Position numbers and translations under genes: made by a program. The notes beneath the pieces are model-generated. The model was not told the DNA's origin and did not search any database. It saw nothing but the letters and a program-made list of their open reading frames with translations. Positions 3,539 through 63,807 of a stretch of DNA of 64,000 nt are shown in pieces. Origin of the DNA: Nitrospirota bacterium. GTDB taxonomy: Bacteria > Nitrospirota > Thermodesulfovibrionia > Thermodesulfovibrionales > UBA6898. Positions within the stretch are counted from its first letter, which is position 1; every line of letters starts with the position of its first letter. The DNA is taken from assembly GCA_016235245.1 (NCBI GenBank), contig JACRLO010000015.1, forward strand, positions 1 through 64,000. Reading direction: 5' to 3'.

Positions 3539-3849
3539 TCCTTCTCCATTACGCATTTTAGCGGGAACTCATGCTCCCGCGCAATTTTGTGTACGGTGTC
3601 CAGCTTTGTTTCCGCGATTTCCCTCGTGTAGATACCTGCAAGTCCCCTGCCGCTTTTGTGAACATGAAGCATGATCCTTGTGGCCTCAACCACCGGCATA
3701 TGAAATATGGTTTCAAGGACATGAATAACAAAATCCATGGTCGTATAGTCGTCGTTAAGGAGGAATACGGCATACAGCGGGGGCTTTTTAGACTGCAGGT
3801 CAGCATCTTCCTGTGCGTCTTTTTCTCTTTGCGGATTGTGGATTGCCAT
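3535..3849 (-). CDS. clpS: ATP-dependent Clp protease adaptor ClpS
   Basis: ClpS binds N-degron residues (Leu, Phe, Tyr, Trp) and delivers the proteins to ClpA. From the chosen ATG at 3849 the product has 104 residues, the normal family size; about 49 upstream in-frame codons do not look like ClpS. The diagnostic segments are VFLLNDDYTTMDFV (the binding-pocket acidic pair) and MLHVHKSGRGLAGIYTREIAETK-like sequence near the C-terminus. The gene overlaps clpA by 4 bp. No Shine-Dalgarno sequence is evident; an extended -10 element lies 8 nt upstream of the ATG, so the message may be nearly leaderless. Confidence 0.93.
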   Translation of the reverse strand: MAIHNPQREKDAQEDADLQSKKPPLYAVFLLNDDYTTMDFVIHVLETIFHMPVVEATRIMLHVHKSGRGLAGIYTREIAETKLDTVHKIAREHEFPLKCVMEKE

Positions 3850-3857
3850 CTGCCGGT

Positions 3858-3866
3858 ATTTTATCA
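3858..3866 (-). promoter_or_regulatory. Putative extended -10 promoter of clpS
   Basis: Read on the minus strand the bases are TGA-TAAAAT, an extended -10 for a housekeeping sigma factor. Only 8 nt separate it from the clpS ATG, so transcription would begin at or within a few bases of the start codon. No convincing -35 was found. Assigned by pattern only. Confidence 0.45.
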
Positions 3867-4023
3867 CAGGACGAGCGTGTGATTCCCTGGAAATTGCCAT
3901 TGACATGACAGGATATGTGCCATAAGGCAGACGTGCATTGCCAGGGATGCCTGCAGTGAAAACAGAAATGCAAAAGGCAGAAAGGAACTGACGCATTCAT
4001 TTCGAAGCAATTTAAAGGTAATT

Positions 4024-57810: not shown

Positions 57811-60093
57811 ATGTCAAAACAGGGCAAATTAATCGCTAGCTATGCATGGGGGGCAGCTGTAATCTGGTCACTTATTATGTCTGGATTACTGTACAGTGAT
57901 CAAGTCAACCATAAGCGGCAGATGCAGGAACTGGCAAAAGGTGAGGCAGCGTCTGCTTTCGAGAAAGACCTTATATACAGACGATGGAATACGTCACATG
58001 GCGGAGTTTATGTGCCGGTCACGCAAAATACCCCTCCTAACCCCCACCTTGCCAACATTCCTGAGCGCGATCTCACCACCACTACGGGAAAGAAACTGAC
58101 TCTTATGAACCCGGCATATATGACGAGACAGGCGCATGAAATTGCCGCAAGGGAAAACGGTGTTCTCGGCCATATTACGAGCCTTAACCCTATCCGGCCT
58201 GAAAATGAGGCTGACTCGTGGGAAAAGGCTGCTCTTCAGGATTTTGAGCGCGGGACAACAGAGCATTCCTCTGAAGAACTGATAAATGGCCGGAAATATT
58301 TACGGTATATGCGGCCGCTTAAGACAGAGAAAGCCTGTCTTAAATGCCATGCCGTTCAGGGATACAAAGAAGGGGATGTCAGGGGCGGCATCAGCATCTC
58401 ATTGCCGATGGAGCCTTATCTGAAGGTCGATATGGCAGTCTTTCGTTCACGTCTTGCAACCTATGGTTTTCTCTGGCTGATCGGCCTTGTTCTGATAGGA
58501 ACCGGTGCAAAACAGCTCATAGGGCAGACGACAAAAATACGTGAACAGGAAAAAGTCAAAGAAGAGGCAATCAGGAATGCGAAAGAAGAATGGGAGCGCA
58601 CCTTCGATGCAATAACGGATCCGATTATGATCCTTGACACAAACTTCAAAATAATTAAGGCCAACAAGTCAACTGCAGACAGACTGGGCGTATCGGTAAA
58701 GGAGGCAGAGGGGTTGACATGCTATGAAGCTGTGCATGGCACTAAGCAGCCACCGGCATCTTGTCCCCATGTGAAATTGATATCAGATGGGAAGTTTCAT
58801 GCCGAAGAGATCACCGAGTCAAGACTTGGGGGTTGCTTTCATGTTACGGTCTCCCCCATCTGCAGTAATGACGGGACGTTATACGGATCAGTCCATTCCG
58901 CGCGTGACATAACCGAACTTAAGAAGGCTGAAGAGCTTGGAAGGAAACACTCGAAAGACCTCGAAAAACTGCTTTTCATCTCCCGTGAGGTTACACTGAC
59001 TTCCGATATCAGAGGATTATACCGAATATTTGTATCTGCAGCGAAAGAGCTTCTTGCCTTTGATTTTTCATCTTTAATGCTTCTTTCAGACGATAAGACC
59101 GTATTGACTGTTGCAGACTGTCTCGGATTTCCGGAAACGATAATTGGGAATTTCAGTCTGGTGGAAGGGCAAGGGCTATCCACCTATGTAGTTAGGACGA
59201 AACAGTTCGGGACAGTGCATGACTTCCAGCAGGAAACCAGATTTGAGGTGCCGTCCCTTGTCATTGAGCTGGGTATCCGGTCGGCGGTTGCAGTGCCGAT
59301 GATGGTAAAGGATGATATCATAGGCGTACTTATCGGACATACAAAGAGACTCAGGGAATTCTCGCAGAGGGAAATCGACATGTTTCAACATATCGCCAAT
59401 CAGGCGGCCATAGCCGTCCGAAATGTTATGACCACGCGTATGCTGATGAAGAGCGAGAAGAAGATTCAGGATATAGCATCTTCTTTGGGCGAAGGGCTCT
59501 ACTCTCTGGATAATGAAGGGTATGTTACCTACATGAATCCAGAGGCAGAGAAACTGCTTGGCTGGACCATGCAGGAACTTTGCGACAGAAATATCCATGA
59601 CGTTGTGCATAACTGCAGTTCGGACGGGACTCCTCTGTCGTTTAAGGAATGTCCAATACATAAAGTCATCAGCACAGGCAGGCGGTTCATATCGAGCGAT
59701 GAAATCTTTATTCGGAAAGACGGAGCGTCATTCCCTGTCTCGATTATTTCAGCTCCCCTGATGGAAGAAGGAATGGTTGTTGCATCAATTACGGCCTTTC
59801 GCGATATCAGTGAGAGAAAGCAGATAGAGAAGGAGAGAGAAACGCTGATTGACGAGCTCCAAAAGGCACTTGCCGAGATCAGAACGTTGCAAGGCATTCT
59901 GCCTATATGTTCGTATTGCAAGAAGATCAGGGACGACAAGGGTGCATGGACGCAGATGGAACTCTATATCAGCAAACGCACGGATGCCCAATTCAGTCAC
60001 GGTATCTGCAGCGAATGCGCAAGAAAGGAGTTCCCTCAGTTTTTTAAGGAGCCCGGGAGCCAGGATGACTCCCCTTCCGCGCAACGTGCATAA
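57811..60093 (+). CDS. Membrane sensor: DUF3365 haem-type domain, PAS, GAF, PAS and CxxC tail, no kinase
   Basis: This 760-residue protein has TM1 at about 8-28 and TM2 at about 213-232. Between them a periplasmic DUF3365 (Tll0287-like) domain carries a c-type haem motif CLKCH (176-180). The cytoplasmic part has a coiled coil, PAS1 (about 258-370, with Cys304 in TCYEAVHG and CPHV), GAF (about 385-540), PAS2 (about 550-670). It ends in a Zn-type region with CSYC (700-703) and CSEC (733-736). That tail, ILPICSYCKKIRDDKGAW, recurs in proteins of related bacteria and is of unknown function. There is no HisKA, HATPase, GGDEF or EAL, so output is presumably by protein interaction. Confidence 0.85.
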   Translation: MSKQGKLIASYAWGAAVIWSLIMSGLLYSDQVNHKRQMQELAKGEAASAFEKDLIYRRWNTSHGGVYVPVTQNTPPNPHLANIPERDLTTTTGKKLTLMNPAYMTRQAHEIAARENGVLGHITSLNPIRPENEADSWEKAALQDFERGTTEHSSEELINGRKYLRYMRPLKTEKACLKCHAVQGYKEGDVRGGISISLPMEPYLKVDMAVFRSRLATYGFLWLIGLVLIGTGAKQLIGQTTKIREQEKVKEEAIRNAKEEWERTFDAITDPIMILDTNFKIIKANKSTADRLGVSVKEAEGLTCYEAVHGTKQPPASCPHVKLISDGKFHAEEITESRLGGCFHVTVSPICSNDGTLYGSVHSARDITELKKAEELGRKHSKDLEKLLFISREVTLTSDIRGLYRIFVSAAKELLAFDFSSLMLLSDDKTVLTVADCLGFPETIIGNFSLVEGQGLSTYVVRTKQFGTVHDFQQETRFEVPSLVIELGIRSAVAVPMMVKDDIIGVLIGHTKRLREFSQREIDMFQHIANQAAIAVRNVMTTRMLMKSEKKIQDIASSLGEGLYSLDNEGYVTYMNPEAEKLLGWTMQELCDRNIHDVVHNCSSDGTPLSFKECPIHKVISTGRRFISSDEIFIRKDGASFPVSIISAPLMEEGMVVASITAFRDISERKQIEKERETLIDELQKALAEIRTLQGILPICSYCKKIRDDKGAWTQMELYISKRTDAQFSHGICSECARKEFPQFFKEPGSQDDSPSAQRA

Positions 60094-60155: not shown

Positions 60156-62060
60156 TCAGTAAGGGGCAGCGTCGATCCTGATTTCGATGTCTCTTGTATT
60201 TTTGAATCGTGATACCACCGCTCGTGCTGCAGCATGCAGGACCTTTCTTTCAGCGTGTTTGAGCAGGAACGAGTGCTCGATCCCTTTTCTTGTCTTTTTC
60301 TCCGTCGGTCCGAGGATCTCAACCGGTTCTTTTGATTCTCTGATGATCTTCATGATCTTGTCTGCAAGCTCTGCATTTCCATAGACCAGGATGTTTAGCA
60401 TCTTTGAATAGGGCGGAAACTGCAGCGCCGCCCTCATCGCAAGTTCTTCTGTAACGAACGCCTCATAATTATTGTCTCGCAGATGCCGGAACATCGGGTC
60501 CTGGGGAAAGCGCGTCTGGACGATGACCTCGCCTTTTGCTGACACAAGATCACGAACTGCGACTATCTCCTGATATGTCTTTTCACGTGCCCGAAAATCC
60601 GGAATATTGAGACTGTTGTCAACATTGAGAAGCGCAGCCAGAGAAAAACTATTATTGGGGTTGAGGCGTTTTGTCAGCATCTTTGTGCCTACAATGATCC
60701 GGGCATCATCAGTGGCGATGTTTTTCAAAAGACCCTCTATTTCTGTTTTTTTGCCCGCACTGTCACTGTCAAAGCGCAGGGGATCGATATTGAAAAGATC
60801 CCTGAGATCTTCTTCGATCCTCTGTGTCCCGGCCCCAAGCTGTTCAATATTGGGACTGCTGCATTTGGAGCATACATCAGGAACAGAAAGAGATTTGGCG
60901 CAGTAGTGACATGCAAGGAGGTTCCTGTCTTTATGAAGCACCAGGGGAATGCCGCAGTCAGGGCATGATGCCGTATTGTTACAGTCTGCGCAGTGAAGAA
61001 ATGTTGAATGACCCCTTCTGTTGATGATGAAGAGTATCCGTCCATTCTTCTGCAGAACCCGGCGAGCCCTGTCGATTACCGTATCGGAGAGATAAGCGCG
61101 GCGTTTTTTTCCGAACCGCAGGTCGGCGAGCCTTATCGCCGGCGTCGGTGCTGTTGTCTTCAGCCTGATGAGATTATATTTGCCGGATTGAGCGTTGAAC
61201 CATGAATCCATTGACGGCGACGGTGACATGAGTAGTACGGGAACCCCTTCCAGGTAACCCCTCATGACTGCGGTGTCCCGGACATTGAGCCTGATCCCTT
61301 CCTCAGACTTATGCGAAGACGAATGTTCATCGATCACCATGATAAGCGACAGTTCTTTCACGGGGGCGAAGAGTGCCATTCGGGTGCCGATAATAATGTC
61401 ATGTTTCCCGGTTATAATGCTGTCGATGCTCTCTGAACGCCTGCCGGCTGCCATGTCGCTGTGAAGAATGCAGGCCCTTTCTCCGTATTCGGCCCTGATT
61501 GCCTGGTAGAACAGCTCTGCCTGGGAGATCTCCGGGAAGAGGACAATAACACTGCTGCGCGACCGGAGCATGGATGCTGCGGCAGAGTATTCATGGATAA
61601 CCGTAGGGGTAAACAGGAGCGATGTCTGGTAATGCTTTTGGCCGACAGCAGCCTGAAGTTCAGACAGGTCACCCTCCGGAAGGTCGATCAACGGCGCCAT
61701 TTCAGCGGAAGTCGGCTCATCGGTATTCCTGCGCTTTGTTTTTTTGAAGATTTCCCTTGGGAATGACTGTTTCAGGACTAGGCCCTCAGGAGCAAGGAAG
61801 TATTCTGACATCCATGCAATCAGTTTGAGCGCGGCAGCGCTGTAGACCGGCGTGCTGCCGTGGATCTCTGTGATATCCTTAAGACGTCCGGCAGGAGGAA
61901 TGGTATTTATTCTATAAATGAGACCCTTTGCCATACTCTTCTTGAGCGGTGCGGAAACGATCATGCCCGGCTTAGCCAGAAGTTCCAGGCTTTCAGGGCA
62001 GCGGTATGTGAGAGGCCCCAGGTTAATGGGGAATATGATGTCAAAGCATGGTATGCTCAC
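60156..62060 (-). CDS. priA: PriA-like primosomal protein N' with erased ATPase motifs
   Basis: PriA reloads the replisome at stalled forks. This 634-residue protein has the N-terminal fork-binding region, the eight-Cys zinc region (Cys357, 360, 366, 369, 384, 387, 397, 400), GAGTQRIEEDL, and DFRAREKTYQEI near the C-terminus. However, the Walker A site reads LLFTPTVIHE where GVTGSGKTE is expected; the DEEH box reads IDEH; and the motif VI GRAGR is replaced by AVRDLVSA. ATP hydrolysis is therefore unlikely. A non-helicase PriA is known from Actinobacteria. The start is GTG 62060; no ribosome binding site is visible. The gene ends 62 bp from the convergent sensor gene. Confidence 0.9.
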   Translation of the reverse strand: MSIPCFDIIFPINLGPLTYRCPESLELLAKPGMIVSAPLKKSMAKGLIYRINTIPPAGRLKDITEIHGSTPVYSAAALKLIAWMSEYFLAPEGLVLKQSFPREIFKKTKRRNTDEPTSAEMAPLIDLPEGDLSELQAAVGQKHYQTSLLFTPTVIHEYSAAASMLRSRSSVIVLFPEISQAELFYQAIRAEYGERACILHSDMAAGRRSESIDSIITGKHDIIIGTRMALFAPVKELSLIMVIDEHSSSHKSEEGIRLNVRDTAVMRGYLEGVPVLLMSPSPSMDSWFNAQSGKYNLIRLKTTAPTPAIRLADLRFGKKRRAYLSDTVIDRARRVLQKNGRILFIINRRGHSTFLHCADCNNTASCPDCGIPLVLHKDRNLLACHYCAKSLSVPDVCSKCSSPNIEQLGAGTQRIEEDLRDLFNIDPLRFDSDSAGKKTEIEGLLKNIATDDARIIVGTKMLTKRLNPNNSFSLAALLNVDNSLNIPDFRAREKTYQEIVAVRDLVSAKGEVIVQTRFPQDPMFRHLRDNNYEAFVTEELAMRAALQFPPYSKMLNILVYGNAELADKIMKIIRESKEPVEILGPTEKKTRKGIEHSFLLKHAERKVLHAAARAVVSRFKNTRDIEIRIDAAPY

Positions 62061-62098: not shown

Positions 62099-62416
62099 TT
62101 ATGCCTTGATAAAAGAGCAGCAATAGTCGCTGACGGTCTTCACTTTCATGGTGAATTTCGAATTTGCAGGGACCTCGAAGGATTCTCCTCCCCTGATCGT
62201 CTGCCATGAATTCTGGTTGGGTAAGAGCAGGTCAAGTTCGCCTGAAAGGATCTCCATGATCTCTCTGTCTCCCGTATTGAACTCATACTCGCCGGGCAGC
62301 ATAACGCCAAGGGTCTTCTTCTCGCCATTCTGGAATATGACTGTCCTGCTCGTTACGCCGCCATTAAAATAAATGTTCGCTTTTTTTACGATTGTTACAT
62401 CCTTGAATTCAGACAT
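62099..62416 (-). CDS. ppnP: Pyrimidine/purine nucleoside phosphorylase
   Basis: This 105-residue cupin (DUF1255) phosphorylises several nucleosides in its characterised E. coli homologue. Visible family segments are [40 protein letters not shown] and [26 protein letters not shown] is the typical C-terminal core. The start at ATG 62416 has a GAGGTG ribosome binding site. The gene sits 38 bp upstream of priA, same strand. Confidence 0.92.
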
Positions 62417-63249: not shown

Positions 63250-63807
63250 ATGATCATTGTCTGGCTTTTCGCCGGGTTTTTTCTGCTAGTAGTACTCTGG
63301 GGTATCTGCATTTTCAACAGGCTTGTCACCGCAAAAAATGACGTAAAAAATGCCTGGGGTCAGATAGATGTGCAGCTAAAACGCAGATATGATCTTATCC
63401 CGAATCTTGTCGCTGCTGTCAGAGGGTATCTGACGCATGAAAAACAGGTGATCGAAAATGTCGTGGCTGCACGGGTAAAGGCCTTATCAACGGCGAAGGT
63501 GAAAGACAGGGCTGCTGCCGAAAACGGTCTCTCTCTTGAATTAAAGGGCCTTTTTGCCGTTATGGAAGCCTATCCTGACTTGAAGGCCAATCAGAATGTC
63601 ATGCAGCTTCAGGAAGAGCTTGTATCAACCGAAAATCGTATAGCCTTTGCCCGCCAGCTTTATAATGACCTCGTGGCTAACTACCTGACGCGGCTTGAGG
63701 TCTTCCCGGATGCCCTGATCGCTTCTGCCTTTGCATTCCTTCCCTTCGAATATTTCTCTGCAGAGCCGCGTGACAGAGAGCTGCCGAGAGTCTCTGCAGA
63801 GAAATAA
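63250..63807 (+). CDS. lemA: LemA family protein
   Basis: This 185-residue protein has a single N-terminal membrane helix (VWLFAGFFLLVVLWGICIF) and a cytoplasmic helical bundle. Motifs LVTAKNDVKNAWGQIDVQLKRR, DLIPNLVAAVRGYLTHE and LVSTENRIAFARQLYNDLV are typical of LemA. Function is poorly defined; LemA genes often precede M48-type membrane proteases, as here. It follows the small charged protein by 9 bp. Confidence 0.93.
   Translation: MIIVWLFAGFFLLVVLWGICIFNRLVTAKNDVKNAWGQIDVQLKRRYDLIPNLVAAVRGYLTHEKQVIENVVAARVKALSTAKVKDRAAAENGLSLELKGLFAVMEAYPDLKANQNVMQLQEELVSTENRIAFARQLYNDLVANYLTRLEVFPDALIASAFAFLPFEYFSAEPRDRELPRVSAEK

Follow-up and report, generated by a model that had tools for sequence, protein, structure and literature searches.

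On the reverse strand of the window, by which is meant the whole 64,000-nucleotide stretch of Nitrospirota DNA analysed here, positions 60156-62060 carry an intact reading frame of 634 amino acids with a GTG start, encoding the sole copy in its genome of PriA, the protein responsible for restarting DNA replication that has stalled. The product is recognised by the full-length PriA family model TIGR00595 (357 bits, cut-off 230), does not attain the stricter cut-offs of PRK05580 (at least 763), and scores 412 bits with the general PriA models of NCBIfam versus 166 bits with the actinobacterial ones. Its domain order is that of E. coli PriA: 3' DNA-binding domain (3'BD), helicase lobe 1, cysteine-rich region, lobe 2 and C-terminal domain. 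The 3'BD is retained at 61758-62024 on the reverse strand (aa 13-101; Pfam PF17764 PriA_3primeBD, 54.2 bits, cut-off 22.7), as is the cysteine-rich region at 60861-60992 on the same strand (PF18319 Zn_ribbon_PriA, 36.5 bits, cut-off 26), with all eight zinc cysteines in place (C357, C360, C366, C369, C384, C387, C397 and C400), and the C-terminal domain at 60162-60413, again on the reverse strand (aa 550-633), is divergent but recognisable, with 22.1 bits against the PF18074 cut-off of 26.9. The initial annotation, made from the sequence alone, had described the eight cysteines and the general architecture as retained, and these matches bear it out. It had also proposed looking for a second PriA; a search of the 3.25-Mb, 96%-complete genome with the priA model returned none, the remaining TIGR00595 matches being Mfd, RecG and UvrB.

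The nearest named relative, at 75% identity, belongs to a separate assembly, a groundwater Nitrospirae MAG (locus L002). In the window, ppnP (pyrimidine/purine nucleoside phosphorylase; 62099-62416, reverse strand) precedes priA by 38 bp in the same orientation, and this gene order is repeated in L002, where ppnP occupies positions 3622-3939, so that the two genes possibly form one operon. A LemA-like protein is encoded on the forward strand at 63250-63807, its sole NCBIfam match being the magnetosome protein MamQ at 80.9 bits (cut-off 250), and this gene too is found near priA in L002. On the other side of priA, the forward strand at 57811-60093 encodes a sensor-like protein combining a Tll0287-like domain that contains a CxxCH haem motif with PAS and GAF domains and a C-terminal cysteine-rich tail (CSYCKK...CSEC), in which no kinase or cyclase domain was recognised.

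The motor motifs were read by alignment to E. coli PriA (L098), after which residues such as K230 are numbered. At the former Walker A or motif I (61584-61610, all motif coordinates being on the reverse strand), TPTVIHEYS (aa 151-159) stands in place of GVTGSGKTE, the P-loop lysine K230 having become E157. The former motif II (61323-61334) reads IDEH (aa 243-246) instead of DEEH, its third-position glutamate (E322) being retained both here and in 91 of 91 relatives, and the former motif III (61212-61229) reads MSPSPS (aa 278-283) where E. coli has GSATPA. At the former motif V (60666-60689; GTKMLTKR, aa 458-465) the E. coli sequence GTQMLAKGH is matched by GTKMLTKRL, in which the GT stays and the Q and KG are gone, and at the former motif VI (60537-60560) AVRDLVSA (aa 501-508) replaces VAGRAGR, with a deletion. 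The Q-motif glutamine (Q203) is missing as well. The erasure of three motifs had been noted in the initial annotation, all three replacements of which are correct, although the extent of the loss was understated, since the Q-motif glutamine, motif III and motif V have gone too.

Across the group to which the window's PriA belongs, the residues lost are Q203, G227, G229, K230, T231, D320, E321, T358, Q540, K544, G545, Q580, G583, R584, G586 and R587, which, going by the alignment to the E. coli protein, are exactly those for ATP. Near-invariant are the eight cysteines together with Y18, E322, R338, P359, E572, R625 and P631-P632; R338 adjoins an aromatic-rich loop, and the DFR after motif V is also retained. 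The set that marks an active helicase (Walker A GxTGSGKT, DEEH, GSATP, the KG of motif V and GRAGR) is absent from the window and from the 91 sequences of the group, and the window's PriA has two features of a pseudohelicase like that of Deinococcus radiodurans: motifs I and II have lost their catalytic residues, and the scaffold is conserved under selection. The stretch between the 3'BD and motif I is also short, about 47 residues compared with 119 in E. coli, whose wild-type PriA has helicase activity and a complete winged-helix linker. The same shortness is seen in five of six intact relatives of the same class and is therefore unlinked to the loss of the motor, so loss of the winged helix was rejected as its cause. 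A structure prediction reached a pLDDT of 33, too low to be of use, and was set aside.

The condition is shared by the whole order to which the genome belongs. PriA is present in 140 of its 149 genomes, nearly always as one match and with no stops in the frames listed, and four of the nine genomes without a match are under or near 80% complete. The sample comprised 91 distinct PriA sequences, namely 90 loci from 13 families of the order plus L002; all 91 lack both a P-loop at motif I and DEEH, whereas GKT and DE[EQ] occur in all 31 intact Nitrospirota controls sampled, a difference that makes the motif loss more than chance. A P-loop-like GEFPRGKT in one of the sequences (L074, residue 61) proved to lie in the 3'BD and not at motif I. 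All eight cysteines are complete in 90 of the 90 order loci, and all motifs are complete in f14, f15 and f16, three families that share the class but lie outside the order. The P-loop lysine position is occupied by glutamate in 75 of the 90 order sequences, and a recurring string, F-L-x-H-A-P-S-x-x-x-E, replaces the P-loop order-wide (E. coli positions 220-232, window aa 147-159), as though the former P-loop site were newly constrained. The residues for ATP binding and hydrolysis were replaced a single time, in the common ancestor of the order.

A single sequence from a metagenome-type assembly with several motifs missing would give the impression of decay, or of an error of sequencing or assembly in that genome. 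Yet identical positions are lost in all 91 sequences, including the 75%-identical relative from another assembly, the frames are open, the eight cysteines are kept, and dN/dS is about 0.16 against the two nearest relatives (dN 0.14-0.15, dS 0.91). Because the loss is order-wide, purifying selection acts on the gene, and the zinc and structural residues are retained, decay is excluded, and the probability left to decay or error taken together is negligible. The initial annotation had argued for selection rather than decay and had named an intact Walker A in close relatives, or sequencing errors at the motifs, as what would overturn it; the former was found in 0 of 91 sequences, and the latter is rejected by the recurrence of the same loss throughout the order. 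Constraint is not even along the protein, dN/dS being about 0.17 in lobe 1, about 0.09-0.11 in lobe 2 and about 0.16 in the zinc region. Mean identity in the lobes is 0.35-0.37 within the motor-dead order compared with 0.51 among intact PriAs, whereas the corresponding values are 0.38 and 0.32 for the 3'BD and 0.40 and 0.45 for the zinc region. The motor is thus partly relaxed and the scaffold held, the 3'BD being as well conserved as in intact PriAs and the zinc region almost as well, and full constraint covers only part of the motor fold.

A second motor-dead group occurs in another class of the phylum, where it comprises an order containing large, Nitrospira-like genomes (families f24, f27, f35 and f36) along with f32, f37 and f38 of the same class, and where the same residues are lost as in the window's order. 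Its loci include L121, L202-L207 (f32), L173-L176 (f36), L208 (f37) and L209 (f38). PriA is intact in families f28-f31, f33, f34, f39 and f40 of that class and in most families elsewhere in the phylum. In f36, f37 and f38 the DEE can still be read, Walker A and GRAGR having disappeared, a pattern suggesting that motif II erodes late. One f32 genome (G358; 95% complete, 2% contamination) holds two differing motor-dead PriA copies, L204 and L205, by duplication or contamination.

The number of losses was addressed by trees, every one obtained by quick search, the main one comprising 70 sequences from which the motif columns had been removed. This tree requires two changes of state: the window's order is recovered as a single branch with an SH-aLRT of 100 and groups with its intact class-mates at 99, and the second motor-dead group forms a branch of its own with an SH-aLRT of 90. 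Two changes are again needed when the second class is sampled more densely; f37 is weakly placed in that tree, so that a third loss is possible, and f37 and f38 may have lost the motor separately. By gene tree and taxonomy, then, the two losses fall on separate branches. The contrary reading, in which one motor-dead state was common to all these Nitrospirota, the motor being regained later or the state passed on horizontally, or was acquired from Actinobacteria or Deinococcota, draws on the marginal rejection of a one-clade tree: constraining all motor-dead sequences into one clade costs 37 log-likelihood units at a borderline AU p of 0.042, a result that agrees with the taxonomy, and placing an actinobacterial sequence inside the clade is statistically allowed (p 0.245). 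It has to contend, however, with the intact families f14-f16 in the one class and the eight intact families in the other, with the two changes in the gene tree and the grouping of the order with its intact class-mates at SH-aLRT 99-100%, with replacement sequences that differ between the groups (K230 is replaced by E in the window's order and mostly by R or a gap in the second), and, as regards an actinobacterial source, with the NCBIfam preference for the general models. A common origin is accordingly considered quite improbable.

Pseudohelicase forms of PriA have precedents. In Deinococcus radiodurans, PriA has been demonstrated experimentally to be a pseudohelicase with unmeasurable ATPase activity and negligible unwinding, which is roughly equal to E. 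coli PriA in binding single-stranded DNA and forks, and which forms a complex with DnaB (PMC4504706). Walker A and B are unconserved and the DNA-binding parts conserved in this protein, the trait is phylum-wide, and no clear priB or dnaT is present (PMC4504706). The window's PriA resembles it in having lost the Walker motifs and kept the DNA-binding parts, and DciA occurs in control genomes of the Deinococcus phylum; the two differ in that the Walker A change in D. radiodurans is described mainly as replacement of the GKT lysine by arginine (PMC4504706), whereas here the overwriting extends to motifs I, II, III, V and VI, and in that the pseudohelicase state of the deinococcal protein, from another phylum, is shown by assay and that of the window's protein is predicted from sequence. 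The actinobacterial PriA has been described as a smaller, very divergent putative orthologue (PMC1193525). That of Tsukamurella (L194) lacks the helicase motifs and keeps the eight cysteines, as does the window's PriA, but belongs to a different NCBIfam group (PRK14873), scoring 914 bits with actinobacterial and 156 with general models, and it is far more divergent, its branch of 4.57 being too long for the tree to place. The initial annotation had cited Actinobacteria as a precedent and suggested an independent case. Tsukamurella supports the former, although Actinobacteria are not the sole precedent, D. radiodurans having been shown to be another (PMC4504706). The suggestion of independence is upheld by the intact state of the nearest outgroup families of the same class, by a gene tree that nests the motor-dead order with them, and by the difference in NCBIfam group from Tsukamurella. 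No report of a PriA pseudohelicase in Nitrospirota was found in the open-licence literature; PriA pseudohelicases are thus already known, shown in Deinococcus-Thermus and present in Actinobacteria, and the Nitrospirota case is new as far as could be found.

The partners of PriA in E. coli are PriB, PriC, DnaT and DnaC. Of this restart set, neither PriC (no PF07445 match) nor DnaC was found in the window's genome, in which a PF01695 search recognised no DnaC or DnaI: the matches above cut-off, examined as DnaC/DnaI candidates, proved to be DnaA and an SRP54-type, FlhF-like flagellar GTPase, and two more fell below it. DnaB and DciA are both present, and DciA occurs in 110 of 118 genomes of the phylum and in 80 of the 80 good ones. 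It is found in both motor-dead groups, in the earlier-reported motor-dead phyla among the control genomes, and in lineages with intact PriA too, and on account of the last it permits rather than explains the loss.

The window's gene very probably encodes a PriA pseudohelicase that acts as an ATP-independent fork-recognition platform reloading DnaB, most likely with DciA. We infer the absent ATPase, the fork binding and the partnership with DnaB and DciA from the residues lost and kept and by analogy with studied PriA proteins. A fork platform is indicated because the parts that form the pore and serve loading in E. coli are retained, D. radiodurans provides a precedent, and DnaB and DciA are present without PriC, DnaC or DnaI. 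In E. coli, fork binding shifts the zinc region and leads to a single-stranded DNA pore framed by the zinc region, lobe 2 and the C-terminal domain (PMC10175261). PriA K230A serves in DnaB-loading assays (PMC10175261), and cells with the ATPase-dead priA300 retain the PriA/PriB pathway in vivo (PMC9713433). The Nitrospirota protein would likewise recognise abandoned forks and D-loops, its 3'BD sitting on the leading 3' end, with the fork and the lagging-strand single-stranded DNA gripped by the helicase lobes together with the zinc region and the C-terminal domain, and would offer DnaB an ATP-independent landing platform, with DciA the most likely loader. Lacking lagging-strand peeling of its own, it would leave that step to another helicase or nuclease, or alternatively be limited to forks at which a lagging-strand gap is already there.

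Reassignment of PriA to a structural DNA-binding or regulatory job outside replication restart would fit the lower conservation of the helicase lobes relative to intact PriAs and the lineage-specific F-L-x-H-A-P-S-x-x-x-E string that sits where the P-loop was. We regard it as improbable, given that this is the sole PriA of its genome and near-universal in the order, that it retains the 3'BD, the zinc region and the signatures of the lobes, and that in D. radiodurans a pseudohelicase examined biochemically still binds both forks and DnaB (PMC4504706). Within the preferred reading of a fork platform, a more speculative extension, which we think rather unlikely, is that two Nitrospirota lineages independently turned PriA into a dedicated ATP-independent DnaB-loading platform for DciA, the P-loop of the window's order being rebuilt as a conserved partner-binding surface, for example for DciA, DnaB or SSB.

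Conservation of the helicase motifs has been taken as a sign that unwinding is advantageous, though E. coli cells survive with an ATPase-dead PriA (PMC4504706). With at least two more independent losses to add, and a scaffold kept under purifying selection, fork recognition and DnaB reloading would be indispensable and unwinding dispensable over the very long term, which suggests that of PriA's two tasks it is unwinding that can be spared. The motor-dead groups offer natural, order-wide material for asking what takes over the unwinding step. A UvrD/Rep/PcrA-type helicase as a common replacement was rejected, the number of strong matches in 44 genomes (1-4 in the window's order, 0-2 in the other motor-dead group and 1-6 with intact PriA) having no association with motor-dead PriA. 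In six genomes of the second motor-dead order (G197, G156, G249, G282, G201 and G244), where, unlike in the window's order, the canonical PcrA-like protein of about 780 bits or more is absent, only a weaker UvrD-like protein is present, scoring about 426-457 bits.
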